This document shows, one piece after another, positions 30,248 to 55,505 of a stretch of DNA of 64,000 nt. A program made the translations under genes and the position numbers. The notes beneath the pieces are model-generated. The model did no database searches. It had not been told where the DNA came from and worked only from the letters and a program-made list of their open reading frames with translations. Each line of letters opens with the position of its first letter. Positions within the stretch are counted from its first letter, which is position 1. The stretch covers positions 1-64,000 of the forward strand of contig JAPHQV010000008.1 in NCBI GenBank assembly GCA_026197075.1. Direction: 5' to 3'. This DNA comes from Gammaproteobacteria bacterium (GTDB lineage: Bacteria; Pseudomonadota; Gammaproteobacteria; DSM-19610).

Positions 30248-32800
30248 CTACTGGACGGTGCGCGCGACTTCCACCCGCTCGAAGACTTCGATCTGGTCAC
30301 CGGGTTTCACGTCGTTGTAGTTCTTCACACCGATACCGCACTCGGTACCGGAACGAACTTCGTTGACGTCGTCCTTGAAGCGCCGCAGGGATTCCAGCTC
30401 GCCCTGGTAGATGACCACGTTGTCACGCAGCACACGGATGGGGGCGTTACGCTTCACCACACCGTCCAGCACGATACTGCCGGCAATGGAGCCGAACTTG
30501 GGCGAAGTGAACACATCGCGCACTTCGGCCAGGCCGATGATGGTTTCCCGCACCTCGGGCGCGAGCATGCCGCTGACGGCACGCTTCACTTCGTCGATGG
30601 CATCGTAAATCACACTGTAGTAGTGCAGATCCACTTCGTGCTCTTCGATGAGGCGACGCGAGGAGGCATCGGCACGCACGTTGAAGCCGATCAGGATGGC
30701 GTTGGACGCCACCGCCAGGTTCACATCGGACTCATTGATACCACCCACGCCGCTGGAAACGATCTTCACCTTCACTTCGTCGGTGATGATCTTGGTCAGG
30801 GCATCGCGCAGGGCCTCCACGCTGCCCTGCACATCGGCCTTGAGCACGATATTGAGGTTTTCGATCTTGCCGGCACCCATCTGCGAGAACATGTCGTCCA
30901 GTTTGGCCTGTTGTTGCTTGGCCAGCTTCTGGTCGCGGGATTTCTCCTGGCGGAAGGCCGCCAGTTCACGGGCCTTGCGCTCGTCGGGCACCACCATCAC
31001 GTCATCACCGGCATTGGGCGTACCGGACAGGCCCAGCACCACGGCAGGCATGGAAGGGCCGGCGGACTCGATAGACGCGCCACTCTCGTCGAACATGGCG
31101 CGCACGCGCCCGTACTCCTCGCCGGACAGGATGATGTCGCCCTTGCGCAGGATACCGTTCTGCACGAGCACCGTGGCTACCGGTCCGCGCCCCTTGTCGA
31201 GGCTGGACTCGATAATGACGCCCTGCGCCGGGCAGTCCTCGACGGCCGTCAGTTCCAGCACCTCGGCCTGCAGCAGGATGGCATCGAGCAGTGCATCCAC
31301 GCCGTCGCCGGTCAAGGCGGACACAGGCATGAACATGGTCTCGCCACCCCAGTCTTCCGGAATGACTTCGTACTGGGACAGCTCATTCTTGACGCGGTCG
31401 GGATCGGCCTCCGGCTTGTCCATCTTGTTGACCGCCACCACCATGGGGACACCGGCCGCCTTGGCATGCTGCACGGCCTCCACGGTCTGCGGCTTGACGC
31501 CGTCATCGGCCGCCACCACCAGGATGACGATGTCCGTCACCTTGGCGCCACGGGCACGCATGGCGGTAAAGGCCGCGTGGCCGGGGGTATCCAGGAAGGA
31601 CACCACGCCCTTGTCGGTTTCCACATGATAGGCACCGATATGCTGGGTGATGCCACCGGCTTCGCCGGCCGCCACCTTGGTGCGGCGGATATAGTCCAGC
31701 AGCGAGGTCTTGCCGTGGTCGACGTGGCCCATGATGGTGACCACCGGCGGACGCGACACTTTTTCCCCGACCACTTCCTTCTGGCGCTCGGCCACGAAAC
31801 TCTGTTCCAGCGCATCCTCGTGGATCGGCTTGGCCACATGGCCGAGCTCTTCCACCACCAGGGTGGCGGTTTCCTGGTCGATGGGCTGGTTGATGGTGAC
31901 CATCACGCCCATCTTCATCAGAGTCTTGATCAACTCCGCGGCCTTCACCGACATCTTCTGGGCCAGCTCCGCAACGGTGATGGCCGCCGGGATGCTTACC
32001 TCACGTACCACGGGCGCGGTGGGCCGGGCAAAGCCATGCTCGCCGCCGCCACTGGATACGAAGGTCTGGCGCGACTTGCCCTTCTTCTTGCGACGACCAC
32101 TCTTGTCGGCGGAGACATGCAATTCCTCGCGACCATACTTGGTGCGGCCGGGGCGCTCTTCATCCCGATCTCCGCGGCCCTTGCGCGCCTCGGTCTTTTT
32201 CGGCCGCGCGTCGGCCGCGGCCTTCGGTGGAACGGGTTCCTCGGCTGCAGCGGCGACACGGGCGCTCTCGAGTGCCTCGGCCTCCAGGCGCGCGGCCTCT
32301 TCGGCCTGGCGCCGTGCCTCGGCTTCCTCGGTACGGCGCTTGGCATCTTCCTCTTCGCGGCGCTTCGCTTCTTCCGCCGCCTGGCGTGCCTCTTCCTGGG
32401 CCTTTAGCGTGGCCTCCTCTTCCGCCAGACGAGCGGCGCGTTCCTGGGCTTCCTGCTCCAGGCGCTCCTTCTCCTCGGCCACCAGCTCCGTACGCTTCAC
32501 ATAGGTGCGTTTCTTGCGCACCTCGACCGCCACGGTCTTGCTGCCACCGCGCGGCGAGCTGCTGCGCAGCTCCGTATGGGTCTTGCGCTTGAGCGTGATC
32601 TTCTTGGGCTCGGACGCCGACAGGGCTTCCTGTTTGCCGTGACTCTTGCGCAGAAAAGTCAGCAGCTGCATCTTTTCCTGGTCGTTGATGATGTCGTCGG
32701 CCTTGGTAATGGACAGACCGGCATCGCCCAGTTGCGACAGGAGTCGCTCGACGGGAAGTCCCACCACATCCGCAAACTGTTTGACTGTTACATCCGACAT
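30248..32800 (-). CDS. infB: Translation initiation factor IF-2
   Basis: GTPase that places initiator tRNA on the 30S subunit. 850 residues: an IF2 N-terminal domain ([13 protein letters not shown]), a long charged Glu/Arg/Ala-rich region up to about 290, a second IF2_N-type segment, the G domain with [14 protein letters not shown] and NKMDKPEA, then domains II-IV. ATG 32800 (MSDVTVKQF) removes 17 unmatched residues. It lies 23 bases after nusA in the operon. Alternative inner starts, as in E. coli, are possible but not evident. Confidence 0.97.
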
Positions 32801-32823
32801 ACTGTGTCTACCTTCGGGAGTGT

Positions 32824-34341
32824 TCAGGCTTGCTCTTCTTCGGCAAACCACGGGGCACGTGCGGTCATGATCAGACTACCTGCACGTTCTTCGTCCATGC
32901 CCTCGATTTCCATCAATTCATCCACGGACTGCTCGGCCAGGTCTTCCATGGTGACCACCCCGCGCCCGGCCAGGACGAAGGCCAGCTCGCGATCCATGCC
33001 ATCCATTTCCAGCAAATCCTGGGCCGGTTGCGCATCACCCAGCTGTTCCTCGCTGACGATGGCACGGGTGATCAGCACGTCACGGGCACGGCCGCGCAGT
33101 TCCTCCACCATGCCCTCGTCGAATTCCTCGACTTCCAGCAATTCCTGGGTAGGCACATAGGCCACCTCTTCCACGCTGGAGAATCCTTCCTGCACCAGGA
33201 TGACGGCAATTTCCTCGTCCACGTCCAGCTGTTCCATGAACAGCTTCTGCAGCGACTGCGCCTCGGCCTCGCTCTTTTCCTCGGCCTGCGCCTCGTCCAT
33301 CACGTTCAGGGTCCAGCCGGTGAGCTCACTGGCGAGACGCACATTCTGGCCGCCACGGCCGATGGCCTGGGACAGCTGCTCGGTATTCACCGCCACGTCC
33401 ATGCTGTGGGAGTCCTCGTCCACCACGATGGAGACCACCTCGGCCGGTGACATGGCGTTGACCACGAACTGCGCCGGGTTGTCATCCCAGAGAATGATAT
33501 CCACGCGTTCACCGGACAGCTCCGTGGACACGGTCTGCACCCGCGAGCCGCGCATGCCCACGCAGGCGCCGACGGGATCGATACGGGGATCGTTGGACTT
33601 GACGGCGATCTTGGCGCGCATGCCCGGGTCGCGGGCGGCACCCAGTATCTCGATCAGGCCCTGGCCCACTTCCGGCACTTCCAGCTTGAACAGCTCGATG
33701 AGGAATTGCGGCGCTACGCGGCTGATGAACAGCTGGGGACCACGGGGCTCGGAACGCACCTCGCGCAGGTAGCCACGCAGACGGTCGCCGGCACGCACGG
33801 ATTCACGGGGAATCATGTCTTCGCGATAGATCACCGCCTCGGAATTGCCGCCGAGATCGAGATACACGTTGCCGCGCTCCACGCGCTTGACGACACCGGT
33901 CACCAACTCACCGATGCGATCCTGGAAGGCATCCACGACCTGGGCGCGCTCTGCCTCGCGCACCTTCTGCACGATGACCTGCTTGGCGGTCTGGGCGCCG
34001 ATACGGCCGAACTCCACCGACTCGATCTGTTCCTCGACAAAGTCGCCGACCTGGATATCGGGGTTTTCCTCGCGGGCGGCCGCCAGCGTGGTCTGCCGCG
34101 CCGGAAACTCCATGGGAAAGGGGTTACCTTCCTCATCCACGTCGGGAATCACTTCCCAGCGCCTGAAGGTCTCGTAGTCTCCGGTCTTGCGATCGATTTC
34201 CACCCGCGCGTCGATTTCGGCAAGCGCGCGCTTCTTGGTCGCCGATGCCAGTGCGGCCTCGATCGCCTCGAAGATAATATTCTTATCGACGCCCTTCTCG
34301 TTGGAAACCGCGTCCACCACCAACAAGATCTCTTTGTTCAT
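32824..34341 (-). CDS. nusA: Transcription termination/antitermination factor NusA
   Basis: RNA polymerase-bound regulator of pausing, termination and antitermination. 505 residues: N-terminal domain ([15 protein letters not shown]), S1, two KH domains ([14 protein letters not shown] and [13 protein letters not shown]) and two C-terminal acidic repeats ending near [16 protein letters not shown] 34341 has CGGAGG eight bases upstream; GTG 34347 is less likely. Follows rimP by 24 bases. NusA controls its own operon in E. coli, consistent with the hairpin-rich leader here. Confidence 0.97.
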
Positions 34342-34365
34342 TGCCACTTCCTCCGAGCCGGATGC

Positions 34366-34821
34366 TCAGTATTCGGGTATCAAACGCGCCTGGTCGACCT
34401 GATCCAGCGGTAATTCAAATTCCTCGCCATCCACTTCCACGATGGCGTTGTCACCTTCCAGGCCCATCAGCAGCCCGGTGAAATTGCGCCGGCCCTGGAC
34501 CAGGCCGTGCATGCGCACCTTGACGCGATGACCGGCGAAACGCGCATAGTCCTGCGCCCTGAACAGTGGGCGGTCCAGCCCGGGCGAGGACACCTCCAGG
34601 GCATAATGGCCCTGGATGGGATCTTCCACATCCAGCAGGCCGCTGACCTGGTGGCTCACCGCCTGGCAATCTTCCAGCGTGATGCCATCCTCGTGGTCGA
34701 TATAGATGCGCAACAGTCCATTGGTGGACCCGCCGCGATATTCCACGCCCACCAGCTCGTAACCCAGACCAGACACCGCCGGCTCGATCAGCTCTCGCAA
34801 TTGCGCTGGTTGCTGGGACAT
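34366..34821 (-). CDS. rimP: Ribosome maturation factor RimP
   Basis: 30S assembly factor. 151 residues with an N-terminal alpha-beta domain (LIEPAVSGLGYELVGVEY), the conserved EDCQAVSHQVSGLLDVEDPI and VSSPGLDRPLF, and an Sm-like C-terminal domain. First gene of the rimP-nusA-infB-rbfA-truB-rpsO-pnp operon, preceded by its own promoter and a leader hairpin. Confidence 0.96.
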   Translation of the reverse strand: MSQQPAQLRELIEPAVSGLGYELVGVEYRGGSTNGLLRIYIDHEDGITLEDCQAVSHQVSGLLDVEDPIQGHYALEVSSPGLDRPLFRAQDYARFAGHRVKVRMHGLVQGRRNFTGLLMGLEGDNAIVEVDGEEFELPLDQVDQARLIPEY

Positions 34822-34835
34822 ACCGACACCACAAA

Positions 34836-34857
34836 CAAAAAATGGGCCCTAGGCCCA
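34836..34857 (-). terminator. Terminator-like hairpin in the rimP leader (possible attenuator)
   Basis: On the minus strand TGGGCC-TAG-GGCCCA is followed at once by TTTTTT, 15 bases before the rimP ATG and about 30 after the predicted start of transcription. Position in the leader suggests attenuation of the operon, as the stem alone would be a weak terminator. Confidence 0.5.
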
Positions 34858-34893
34858 CTTCGTTAACCGCTCAATTCCCGGAAAACGCCGGCC

Positions 34894-34922
34894 AGTATAC
34901 CAGCGAAACCGAAAATCTCCAA
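34894..34922 (-). promoter_or_regulatory. Sigma-70 promoter of the rimP-nusA-infB operon
   Basis: On the minus strand TTGGAG, a 17-base spacer and TATACT, giving a predicted start near 34887 and a leader of about 65 bases before the rimP ATG. Confidence 0.75.
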
Positions 34923-34973
34923 ATCAAACCGATGGTTAGCTCAACAAGTCCTTTCCAGGACGATCCCGGGAAA

Positions 34974-35039
34974 CGAAAAAACCCCGGGAACGGGGCTTTA
35001 CAGAAGGGCCAAACAACTCCGAAACCCCGAGCTGACCGA
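34974..35039 (-). ncRNA. Putative orphan small RNA upstream of rimP
   Basis: A near-consensus promoter (TTGCCA, 17 bases, TATAAT at 35046-35074) is followed 65 bases later by a perfect intrinsic terminator (34975-35000: GCCCCG-TTCC-CGGGG then TTTTTT). No open frame of note lies between. The unit would make an RNA of roughly 65 bases starting near 35039. It does not fold as a tRNA. In E. coli this place holds metY; here a short independent transcription unit has that position. Function unknown. Confidence 0.6.
34975..35000 (-). terminator. Terminator of the putative small RNA
   Basis: Minus-strand AAAGCCCCG, loop, CGGGGTTTTTTC: a GC-rich stem directly followed by six T residues. Confidence 0.8.
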
Positions 35040-35045
35040 GCGCGA

Positions 35046-35074
35046 ATTATAAGGAGACCCCCCGCATTTGGCAA
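35046..35074 (-). promoter_or_regulatory. Strong sigma-70 promoter of the putative small RNA
   Basis: Minus-strand TTGCCA and TATAAT separated by exactly 17 bases, one of the closest matches to consensus in the window. Confidence 0.75.
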
Positions 35075-35196: not shown

Positions 35197-35607
35197 ATGA
35201 ACACCAAACGCACAACCCTGATGTCAGCCCTGCTGGCGGCCATCCTGGCCTCCACCACCACCCTGGCGGCACCCCCCGGAGGCGGCATGGGCGGCGGCCA
35301 GGGGCGCGTCGACAACGATGCACCGGGGCTCGAACGTGCCGAACAGGTACAGGAGCGCAACGAGGTCCGCAAGGAGATGCAGAAGGAATACCAGAAGGGC
35401 AATGGCAGCGGCGATCAGGACCGAGACCGTGAGCGCTACCGGGATCCGGATGCGGACCGTGACGCAGCCAAGGCGAAGGCCAAGGGGCAGGGCAGCAACG
35501 GCGGCGGCGACCAGGATCGTGTGCGCGACCGCATCCACCAGGATGAAAACGGCCGTGGCGAAGAGCCGCGCGAGCGCCGCTGGTGGTGGCCATTCGGGGA
35601 CCGCTAG
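35197..35607 (+). CDS. Secreted, highly charged low-complexity protein of unknown function
   Basis: 136 residues. A signal peptide (KRTTLMSALLAAILASTTTLA, cleavage near residue 25) is followed by GGGMGGGQG, then a hydrophilic stretch rich in Asp, Arg, Glu, Lys and Gly (QDRDRERYRDPDADRD) and a Trp cluster at the end (RRWWWPFGDR). No known domain is recognised; it may be largely unfolded. AGGAAGG lies nine bases before ATG 35197, and TATACT at 35156-35161 may be its -10. It leads the envelope cluster with an L,D-transpeptidase gene 60 bases on. Confidence 0.75.
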   Translation: MNTKRTTLMSALLAAILASTTTLAAPPGGGMGGGQGRVDNDAPGLERAEQVQERNEVRKEMQKEYQKGNGSGDQDRDRERYRDPDADRDAAKAKAKGQGSNGGGDQDRVRDRIHQDENGRGEEPRERRWWWPFGDR

Positions 35608-35667: not shown

Positions 35668-36243
35668 ATGAAGTGGAATCATTGGCCGGCGAACGGGTTA
35701 TCCGCCCTCGTCGGCCTTCTGCTGTGCGGCCTCGCCTGGGCTCAGGCGGATCCCGTCAGTCCCGACCCGTGGTTATTGGTGGACACGCAAACCCAGACCC
35801 TCAGTATCCGGCGGGGGGACGAGGTGATCCAGACCTTTGCGGGCATCGCCATCGGCCGTTTTGGCACCACCGAGGCCAAGCGCACCCTGGACGGTAAGAC
35901 CCCGATGGGCGAATTCCGCATCACCCGCATTGCGGAACGGACCTCCTTTCACCGCTTCTTCGGTCTCGATTATCCCAACCTGACCCATGCGCAGGCCGGC
36001 CTGGAGACCGGACGCATTTCACGCGCCGAATTCGCCGCCATTCGCGCCGCACTGAAACAGGGCGCCACACCACCCCAACTGACCGCCCTGGGCGGCTTTA
36101 TCGGCATCCATGGCCTGGGGGACGGCGATCCCGTCGTTCATGAGGATTTCAACTGGACCAATGGGTGCGTTGCCCTGACCAATGAGCAGATGGATGACCT
36201 GGCTCAATGGGTATACGAGGGAATGCGTGTAATAATTCGTTAG
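35668..36243 (+). CDS. L,D-transpeptidase (YkuD), exported
   Basis: 191 residues with a signal peptide (LSALVGLLLCGLAWAQA, to about 26). The YkuD catalytic region has His148 in FIGIHGLG and nucleophile Cys167 in NWTNGCVAL, the Ser/Asn-x-Gly-Cys pattern, though the usual Arg after Cys-Val is Ala. Such enzymes form 3-3 peptidoglycan cross-links or attach Braun-type lipoprotein to the wall. It stands directly before lpp (115 bases), which favours an anchoring role. A second enzyme of the family lies on the other side of lpp. Confidence 0.9.
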   Translation: MKWNHWPANGLSALVGLLLCGLAWAQADPVSPDPWLLVDTQTQTLSIRRGDEVIQTFAGIAIGRFGTTEAKRTLDGKTPMGEFRITRIAERTSFHRFFGLDYPNLTHAQAGLETGRISRAEFAAIRAALKQGATPPQLTALGGFIGIHGLGDGDPVVHEDFNWTNGCVALTNEQMDDLAQWVYEGMRVIIR

Positions 36244-36358
36244 GCACCCCTTGTTATTCTCCAGGGCGCCACGGAGAATGCGCATCGCGCGGTACATGCG
36301 GGTCCGCATGCCTCTGCTACAACCAGTTTCCCAGCGTCGTTACAAGGAGATCCACGAC

Positions 36359-36640
36359 ATGAACCATAAAGTACTGCTCACCGGCGCACTGCTCGCCGGC
36401 ACTATCGCCCTCGGCGGCTGCGCCAGCACCTCCGAGATCGCCACCCTGCGCACCCAGGTGGAACAGGCCCAGGCAACGGCGGATTCCGCCGCCACCAGCG
36501 CCGCCGCCGCCAGCCGGGACGCCGCCGCCGCCAAGGCCCTCGCGGAACAGGCCCAGGCCGATGCCGCTGCCGCCAAGGCGAAGTCCGAAGACACCGATGC
36601 CAAGATCGATCGGATGTTCAAGAAGACCATGTACAAGTAA
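36359..36640 (+). CDS. lpp: Major outer-membrane (murein) lipoprotein, Lpp/OprI-like
   Basis: 93 residues. The lipobox LGGC puts the lipidated cysteine at residue 21. The mature part is an Ala-rich coiled coil with heptad-like spacing (TLRTQVEQAQATADSAA, AAAKALAEQAQADAAAA) and ends in KKTMYK, with the C-terminal lysine used by Lpp for linkage to peptidoglycan. ATG 36359 has AAGGAG eight bases upstream. A strong terminator follows. Flanking L,D-transpeptidase genes on both sides would supply the enzymes that attach it to the wall. The Ala-rich sequence is closer to OprI of pseudomonads than to E. coli Lpp. Confidence 0.88.
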   Translation: MNHKVLLTGALLAGTIALGGCASTSEIATLRTQVEQAQATADSAATSAAAASRDAAAAKALAEQAQADAAAAKAKSEDTDAKIDRMFKKTMYK

Positions 36641-36653
36641 CACCGCGTTCCGC

Positions 36654-36690
36654 CCCCGCGGGACCTGCTGGTCCCGCGGGGTTTTTTTTT
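36654..36690 (+). terminator. Intrinsic terminator after lpp
   Basis: CCCCGCGGGACC, loop TGCT, GGTCCCGCGGGG and nine T residues: a 12-bp perfect stem, matching the high, discrete expression usual for lpp. Confidence 0.95.
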
Positions 36691-36693
36691 GCC

Positions 36694-37689
36694 TCAGTCC
36701 GACAGGGAAATCGCCACCGGATACCCGCGCGCCTCATGTACGGCCGCGTTGATCAGGCGCCCGCTGAGTCGTGCCGGACGCTCGGCTACCGCCGCCCGGA
36801 TGACGTCCATGGCGTTCTCCATCAGATGTTGCCGTCCCTCCACGTCCTCCTCCAGGGGCGGATGCACCTCGATATACAGGGTATTCAACAGCCAGCCGAT
36901 CTTGACGGGCTGATTGACGATGCGCACCGGCGTGTCCACCGGGATCTCGTCATAGAGTGCGGCGATGTCCTCGGGATACATCCGCAGGCAACCATGCGTC
37001 ACCCGCATGCCGACGCCCCAGGGCTTGTCGGTGCCGTGGATCAGGTAGCTGGGGATGCTCAGGCGCAGGGCATGTCGTCCCAGTGGGTTATCCGGGCCGG
37101 CCGGCACCACTTCCGGCAGGGTCTCGCCGCGTTCCGCCGCCTCGGCGCGAATGGAGGCCGGCGGACGCCAGACCGGGTCCTTCTGTTTGCTGATGATGCG
37201 CCAGCTGCCCAGCGGGGTTTCCCAGTCCATGCGCCCGACACTGACCGGGTAGGTCCGTACCACCCGGGGTTCACCGGCCTTGGCCGGAGGGTAGTAATAC
37301 AGGCGCATCTCGGGCACGTTGAGCACCAGGCCGACGCGCTCGGCCATGGGCAGGATATAGCGGGTGGGCAAGGTGACAGGCGTGCCCTCGCCCGGCAGCC
37401 AGCGATCCACGCCGGGATTGGCGAGAATCATCTCATCATGGCCGATTTGATAGCGACGGGCGATATCCAGCAACGTGTCTTCATGGACAGCCGGAATGTC
37501 CCGCACCTGGCCCACCAGGTCCACATCCTGCGGCGGCAGGGGGAAGGTCTGCCCATGGGCGGCAGGTACCAATAACGCCAGCATCAGCAGCCAGTATCGT
37601 GGCAGCGATCGCCGACAGGGCCTTTTTTCACCCTGCCGGCGGATGCCGGTCTCCCTGGATGCCGGCATCCGCGACGCTACCCTCTTCAT
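36694..37689 (-). CDS. L,D-transpeptidase of the ErfK/YbiS/YcfS/YnhG type
   Basis: 331 residues: signal peptide or anchor (YWLLMLALLVPAAHG), a LysM-like segment (VHEDTLLDIARRYQIGHDEMILANPGV in two parts: DTLLDIARRYQIG, MILANPGV) and a YkuD domain with SYLIHGTDKPWGVG and catalytic RVTHGCLRMYPED, all canonical. This is the architecture of the E. coli enzymes that attach Braun lipoprotein to diaminopimelate. ATG 37689 has GAGG five bases upstream. It is convergent with lpp and lies 45 bases after lptE, in the place where holA often follows. Confidence 0.93.
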   Translation of the reverse strand: MKRVASRMPASRETGIRRQGEKRPCRRSLPRYWLLMLALLVPAAHGQTFPLPPQDVDLVGQVRDIPAVHEDTLLDIARRYQIGHDEMILANPGVDRWLPGEGTPVTLPTRYILPMAERVGLVLNVPEMRLYYYPPAKAGEPRVVRTYPVSVGRMDWETPLGSWRIISKQKDPVWRPPASIRAEAAERGETLPEVVPAGPDNPLGRHALRLSIPSYLIHGTDKPWGVGMRVTHGCLRMYPEDIAALYDEIPVDTPVRIVNQPVKIGWLLNTLYIEVHPPLEEDVEGRQHLMENAMDVIRAAVAERPARLSGRLINAAVHEARGYPVAISLSD

Positions 37690-37734
37690 CAGAACCTCAA
37701 CCACCTTTGCCCACCCCGATTTCCGGACCGGAAA

Positions 37735-54832: not shown

Positions 54833-55164
54833 GCCTGTGCAGGAATTCGCCTGGTCACCAAAGGGCTGGGTAAGGTACCTGATTTGCGGGTTTTTTTCCA
54901 CCTAATCCCTGACCGTCCGCAGGGAAGCCCGGGCTGGGGCGTGGTGGTTCATTGTCCTGGGATTCAAGAGGTTAACCGTAAAGAACACCCAGAAATCATT
55001 ATTGAACCGCCAAGGCGCCAAGACGCCAAGAATTCATAAATAAAAAATGGCACTTGGCTTTTCAACAATGATTCTTCTTGGCGCCTTGGCGTCTTGGCGG
55101 TTCATTCCGGTTTTTCTTGGCGTCTTGGCGCCTTGGCGGTTCAAACACAAACATCGAATAAGAG
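54833..55164. other. Intergenic region between miaB and rnpB
   Basis: About 330 bases with no gene. The left half holds the miaB promoter region; the right half is occupied by three copies of the CTTGGCG repeat. Confidence 0.6.
55004..55142. repeat. CTTGGCG dispersed repeat cluster (three copies)
   Basis: GAACCGCCAAGGCGCCAAGA (55004-55032 in full), its complement at 55075-55103, and a third copy in that second orientation at 55114-55142 with the order of GCC/GTC swapped. The first two form a 29-bp hairpin with a 42-base loop. The third lies 22 bases past the 3' end of rnpB. Confidence 0.85.
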
Positions 55165-55505
55165 GAGTCGGCCGATAAGCCGGGTTCTGTCGAGAACAGT
55201 CATTCATCTGGGATGTCCGTCGCCGGACACCTCGAGCGACCTACCCGGGAACAGCGCGGGCCACGCCAATGTTCCCCTATTTGGTCTTGCTCCGGGTGGG
55301 GTTTGCCCTGCCACACCTGTTACCAGGTGCGCGGTGCGCTCTTACCGCACCATTTCACCCTTACCGGCGCCGAAGCACGTAGGCGGTATGTTTTCTGTGG
55401 CACTTTCCGTAGGCTCGCGCCTCCCAGGCGTTACCTGGCACCCTGCCCTGTGGAGCCCGGACTTTCCTCCATGGCTTGCGCCACAGCGACTGTCTGGCCG
55501 ACTCC
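55165..55505 (-). ncRNA. rnpB: RNase P RNA (type A)
   Basis: Catalytic RNA of RNase P, which trims tRNA 5' ends. On the minus strand it starts near GGAGTCGGCCAGACAGTCGC and ends with CGGCTTATCGGCCGACTCC, whose ends pair as P1. Conserved parts include GGAGGAAAGTCCGGGCTCC, AGGGTGAAATGGTGCGGTAA and ACAGAACCCGGCTTA. Length about 341 bases. No ordinary terminator is seen after it; repeats follow. Confidence 0.96.

Follow-up and report, generated by a model that had tools for sequence, protein, structure and literature searches.

The short promoter-to-terminator unit at 34974–35074 (minus strand) of the window, by which we mean the whole stretch of 64,000 nucleotides analysed, can be read with good confidence as the first promoter (P1) and first terminator (hp1, corresponding to E. 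coli t1) of an attenuated leader of the rimP-nusA-infB operon from which metY has disappeared. The individual parts, their arrangement and the matching elements in relatives were all observed directly, as was the lack of metY. We consider the unit most likely to belong to a conventional regulatory leader and not to be a novel class of RNA. The original prediction of an orphan regulatory RNA unlike known families was not supported, as hp1 matches t1, the first terminator ahead of rimP in E. coli, which Naville and Gautheret (2010) described as an attenuator (PMC2965389). The leader and its operon contain the following features.

35046–35074, minus strand: promoter P1, TTGCCA-17-TATAAT, matching the consensus at 11/12 positions, with a GC-rich discriminator downstream
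34974–35041, minus strand: short leader transcript of about 62–68 nt running from P1 as far as hp1, predicted from sequence
35022–35029, minus strand: candidate antiterminator CGGGGTTT, which can pair with AAAGCCCCG, the 5' arm of hp1, in intermediate folds
34976–34999, minus strand: first terminator hp1, AAAGCCCCG-TTCC-CGGGGTTTTTT, with the C-rich arm leading
34894–34921, minus strand: promoter P2, TGGAGA-16-TATACT, with an extended −10 (TG)
34837–34861, minus strand: second terminator hp2 (the equivalent of E. coli t2), GTGGGCC-TAG-GGCCCATTTTTT
34366–34821, minus strand: rimP, the leading protein gene in the operon with nusA and infB (Pfam RimP_N, 2e-27)
32824–34347, minus strand: nusA, after rimP
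30248–32851, minus strand: infB, after nusA

The promoter and the terminator hairpin on which the original prediction was based were both present (35074–35046 and 34999–34978), with 68 nt from the −10 element to hp1. Scanning both strands of 311 kb of the same genome revealed that P1 was the sole promoter matching the consensus at 11/12 positions or better, and that it was followed by a strong terminator within 40–150 nt. At 10/12, just two more pairs of promoter and terminator were obtained in the 311 kb, one of which was the initiator-tRNA unit. Promoter-like sites in the 2.2 kb around the unit numbered 2, compared with 0.6 expected. The claim that neither a tRNA nor an open frame lies inside was borne out: ARAGORN detected no tRNA between P1 and hp1, and the predicted transcript contained no ORF with a credible start, its single candidate being a 26-aa frame with a TTG start that runs through the terminator. 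The lack of another such promoter in the 311 kb, the strong terminator placed 68 nt after P1, and the absence of a tRNA and of a credible small ORF together confirmed that the promoter-to-terminator unit is real and beyond chance. Transcription from P1 would start ~6–8 nt past the −10 element. A leader peptide was considered and rejected, as both ATG and GTG are absent from the transcript, and a tRNA remnant inside it was rejected since its score was not significant (177 of 2000 shuffles scored as high).

We analysed hp1 further. Its sequence in the window is TGTAAAGCCCCGTTCCCGGGGTTTTTTCGTT, and its stem consists of nine pairs (34999–34978) with a T run through the stem end. Among 170 loci, the strict core AAAGCCCCG-N(3-7)-CGGGGTTTTTT was limited to the window, its one congener and the E. 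coli K-12 rimP leader, and it was obtained in 0 of 100 shuffles of the window. Compensatory changes in the stem were observed over 16 lineages, in an alignment that is small and partly out of register. Counting against the leader reading, CCCCG/CGGGG stems are generally common in terminators, and RsmY and RNAI also match weakly. The CGGGGTTT/AAAGCCCCG interaction comprises eight pairs and a run as long occurred in 106 of 2000 shuffles, so this pairing is weak, is not clearly beyond chance, and is only suggestive of an antiterminator. Directly past hp1, the segment 34951–34973 (CGTTTCCCGGGATCGTCCTGGAAAGGAC) was likewise identical between window and congener; it includes a short inverted repeat, GTCCT-GGAA-AGGAC, and is possibly a processing site.

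Two elements between the unit and rimP were added to the earlier account, namely P2 (34921–34894) and the strongly conserved hp2 (34861–34839), P2 being situated between hp1 and hp2. P2 had no substitutions relative to the congener, and a similarly placed promoter was found in family members and others. The second hairpin represents the general rimP-leader motif, GGGCC..GGCCC followed by a T run, and a G-rich terminator of this type was present in 75 of the 91 gammaproteobacterial rimP upstream regions having enough sequence. The whole leader immediately precedes rimP-nusA-infB in the same orientation, which is the location described by Naville and Gautheret.

The same authors reported that several Gammaproteobacteria have an extra terminator ahead of the one usually found before rimP, so that CCCg...cGGG is followed by GGGc...gCCC, the upstream member of the pair having a potential antiterminator; they proposed NusA as the best candidate regulator of the tandem leader (PMC2965389). 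Both motifs were found in the window, CCCg...cGGG at 34999–34976 and GGGc...gCCC with its T run at 34861–34837. The two leaders share the downstream gene and a CCCCG..CGGGG hairpin followed by a GGGCC..GGCCC hairpin, both with T runs, and the window may also have an antiterminator for the first. The hairpins are ~115 nt apart in the window with a promoter inside, compared with an E. coli spacing of ~25 nt. Used as a control, the leader of E. coli K-12 scored 102 bits against RF01770, whereas the window scored 19.5 bits, which is under the gathering cut-off of 47. The alignment of RF01770 to the window was nevertheless full length (1–102), placing hp1 on hp1 and hp2 on hp2 with a long insertion between. 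By score the window is therefore outside the Rfam family, but its layout and motifs are those of the leader. At the gathering score, the single Rfam match in the window was RNase P (class A RNA, 55160–55505, minus strand, 354 bits). Weak matches to RNAI, RsmY, archaeal SRP and Bp1_162 were rejected as reflecting generic terminator shape or composition.

A close counterpart was also seen in the E. coli metY-rimP-nusA-infB operon, which has P-1 and P0 before metY, P2 at the 3' side of metY and t1 and t2 ahead of rimP, and which is controlled by NusA (PMC6511841). The unit had been said to occupy the position of E. coli metY, and this proved correct: the collinear region of E. coli K-12 reads metY, TATAAAGCCCCGATTTATCGGGGTTTTTTGTT (hp1), AACTGGGCTTTAGGCCCTTTTTTT (hp2) and rimP. 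Both leaders have the order promoter, t1, t2, rimP, a near-identical t1 core and an additional promoter before rimP. Unlike that of E. coli, the window leader has no metY tRNA, no initiator tRNA being present between the promoter and the first terminator, and its P2 is located between t1 and t2. In Salmonella, a rimP-leader RNA is listed among the ProQ-bound sRNAs derived from attenuators (PMC5391140), and the RNA predicted here from sequence would likewise be a short product of termination in the rimP leader. A short terminated RNA is thus to be expected from such a leader, and its presence alone would not make it a new regulator.

We compared the rimP upstream regions of the class. An intact tRNA-Met was found upstream of rimP in 44 of 91 regions, in which a promoter was typically followed by the metY tRNA, then by the C-rich and G-rich terminators in that order, and then by rimP. 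The C-rich terminator was detected in 59/91. It was kept in 23 of the 44 regions without any tRNA-Met, a number that counts the window and its congener, and in these a promoter was often recognisable 65–135 nt ahead. Clear cases of promoter and C-rich terminator without tRNA-Met were provided by six loci (L037, L042, L044, L051, L067 and L072). One of the nearest relatives by NusA (L034) has a tRNA-Met at the corresponding place. A single initiator-tRNA gene was detected in the genome; it is beside nuoN (at G000:C52), and its promoter has a −35 element identical to that of P1 (TTGCCA); the rimP-linked copy is lost. In two other genera of the same family that were searched, P1 and hp1 were absent while a P2-like promoter near −94 and hp2 were present, meaning that hp1 was lost there (or never present) or regained here, which counts against the leader reading. 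At two further loci (L053 and L021), a tRNA-Met reduced to its 3' part was observed 100–300 bases upstream of rimP, ahead of the rimP leader hairpins, and these are apparent intermediates in metY loss.

Conservation of the interior in relatives was seen in the one congener and not outside the genus. Compared with the congener, of which one genome was available for the comparison, there were 0 substitutions in the 72 nt from the −10 element through the terminator (34974–35045), where ~8 would be expected from a neutral divergence of ~12% (39 differences at 333 four-fold sites of rimP and nusA), whereas a search of 368 further genomes from the class gave no similarity to the unit interior. P1 contained one substitution, within the spacer, and upstream of it 16 of 122 bases differed. 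Five substitutions were counted over the 238 nt from P1 to hp2, four of them in the 137 nt outside the unit and down to hp2 (34837–34973). Because these outside parts are nearly as conserved, the constraint is on the whole leader and not on the unit alone.

These comparisons also bear on the other explanations. An independent, genus-specific RNA of ~65 nt that acts in trans, using the old metY promoter and terminator, would fit the strength of the promoter and terminator, the lack of any other element in the space they enclose, the 72 identical nucleotides, and the Salmonella precedent of ProQ-bound RNAs. We consider it unlikely, as the interior occurs in no other sampled genome of the class and, when aligned to other regions upstream of rimP, did no better than chance (3/95 at p≤0.05), its folding did not exceed that of shuffles (z = −0.08), and the conservation extends over the leader beyond the unit in the one congener compared. 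An independent or trans-acting function of the short RNA is unsupported, there being nothing for it beyond conservation in one congener. A combination of the two, in which the emptied cassette became a genus-specific RNA also acting in trans after metY loss and kept its role as the rimP leader's first stage, is quite unlikely as well.

That the unit is a functionless shell of metY, with promoter and terminator left as remnants after tRNA loss and the operon driven by P2 alone, is very unlikely. Relatives in the same family do manage without P1 and hp1, and forms in which the tRNA is missing or truncated occur here and there across the class, but a decaying relic should have diverged more than the one substitution in 101 nt seen across promoter, interior and terminator, against ~12% at four-fold sites. 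A match to consensus is no proof of function on its own, and the promoter-like and terminator-like strings could in principle be coincidental and untranscribed; this is extremely improbable, given that just one promoter in 311 kb scored 11/12 or better and precisely this one is followed by a terminator, that the strings are conserved in the congener, and that a homologous layout occurs elsewhere.

In the attenuated leader that we prefer, P1, as the counterpart of E. coli P-1/P0, would start a transcript that meets hp1 (t1) after ~65 nt. Most polymerases would probably halt there and free a short RNA, and the remaining ones would read through hp1, continue beyond hp2 (t2) and go on to rimP, nusA and infB; P2 would give a second start facing hp2 alone. 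By analogy with E. coli, NusA made from the operon would raise stopping at the hairpins and so limit its own synthesis. The ~65-nt terminated RNA probably exists as a leader product, and most likely the unit governs how much polymerase passes from P1 to the operon genes, with the short RNA as a by-product. In many relatives metY lies between P1 and hp1, and here the tRNA would have been lost with the promoter and terminator left behind. The window offers a clear added case of a rimP-nusA-infB leader that retains its first promoter and terminator after tRNA gene loss, and this retention suggests that they serve the operon and not the tRNA alone. It also illustrates that what looks like an orphan sRNA can, by comparison with relatives, be interpreted as an operon leader of a familiar kind.

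Several neighbouring features were noted. Divergent from the rimP leader, 35197–35607 encodes a 136-aa Gly/Arg/Asp-rich protein that is probably secreted and belongs to no Pfam family. Beyond it, an alanine-zipper outer-membrane lipoprotein ending in ..MYK (36359–36640, plus strand) is located between two genes identified by Pfam.

35668–36243, plus strand: YkuD L,D-transpeptidase gene
36694–37704, minus strand: YkuD L,D-transpeptidase gene

From its gene content, the region 35668–37704 looks like a module for anchoring the lipoprotein to peptidoglycan.
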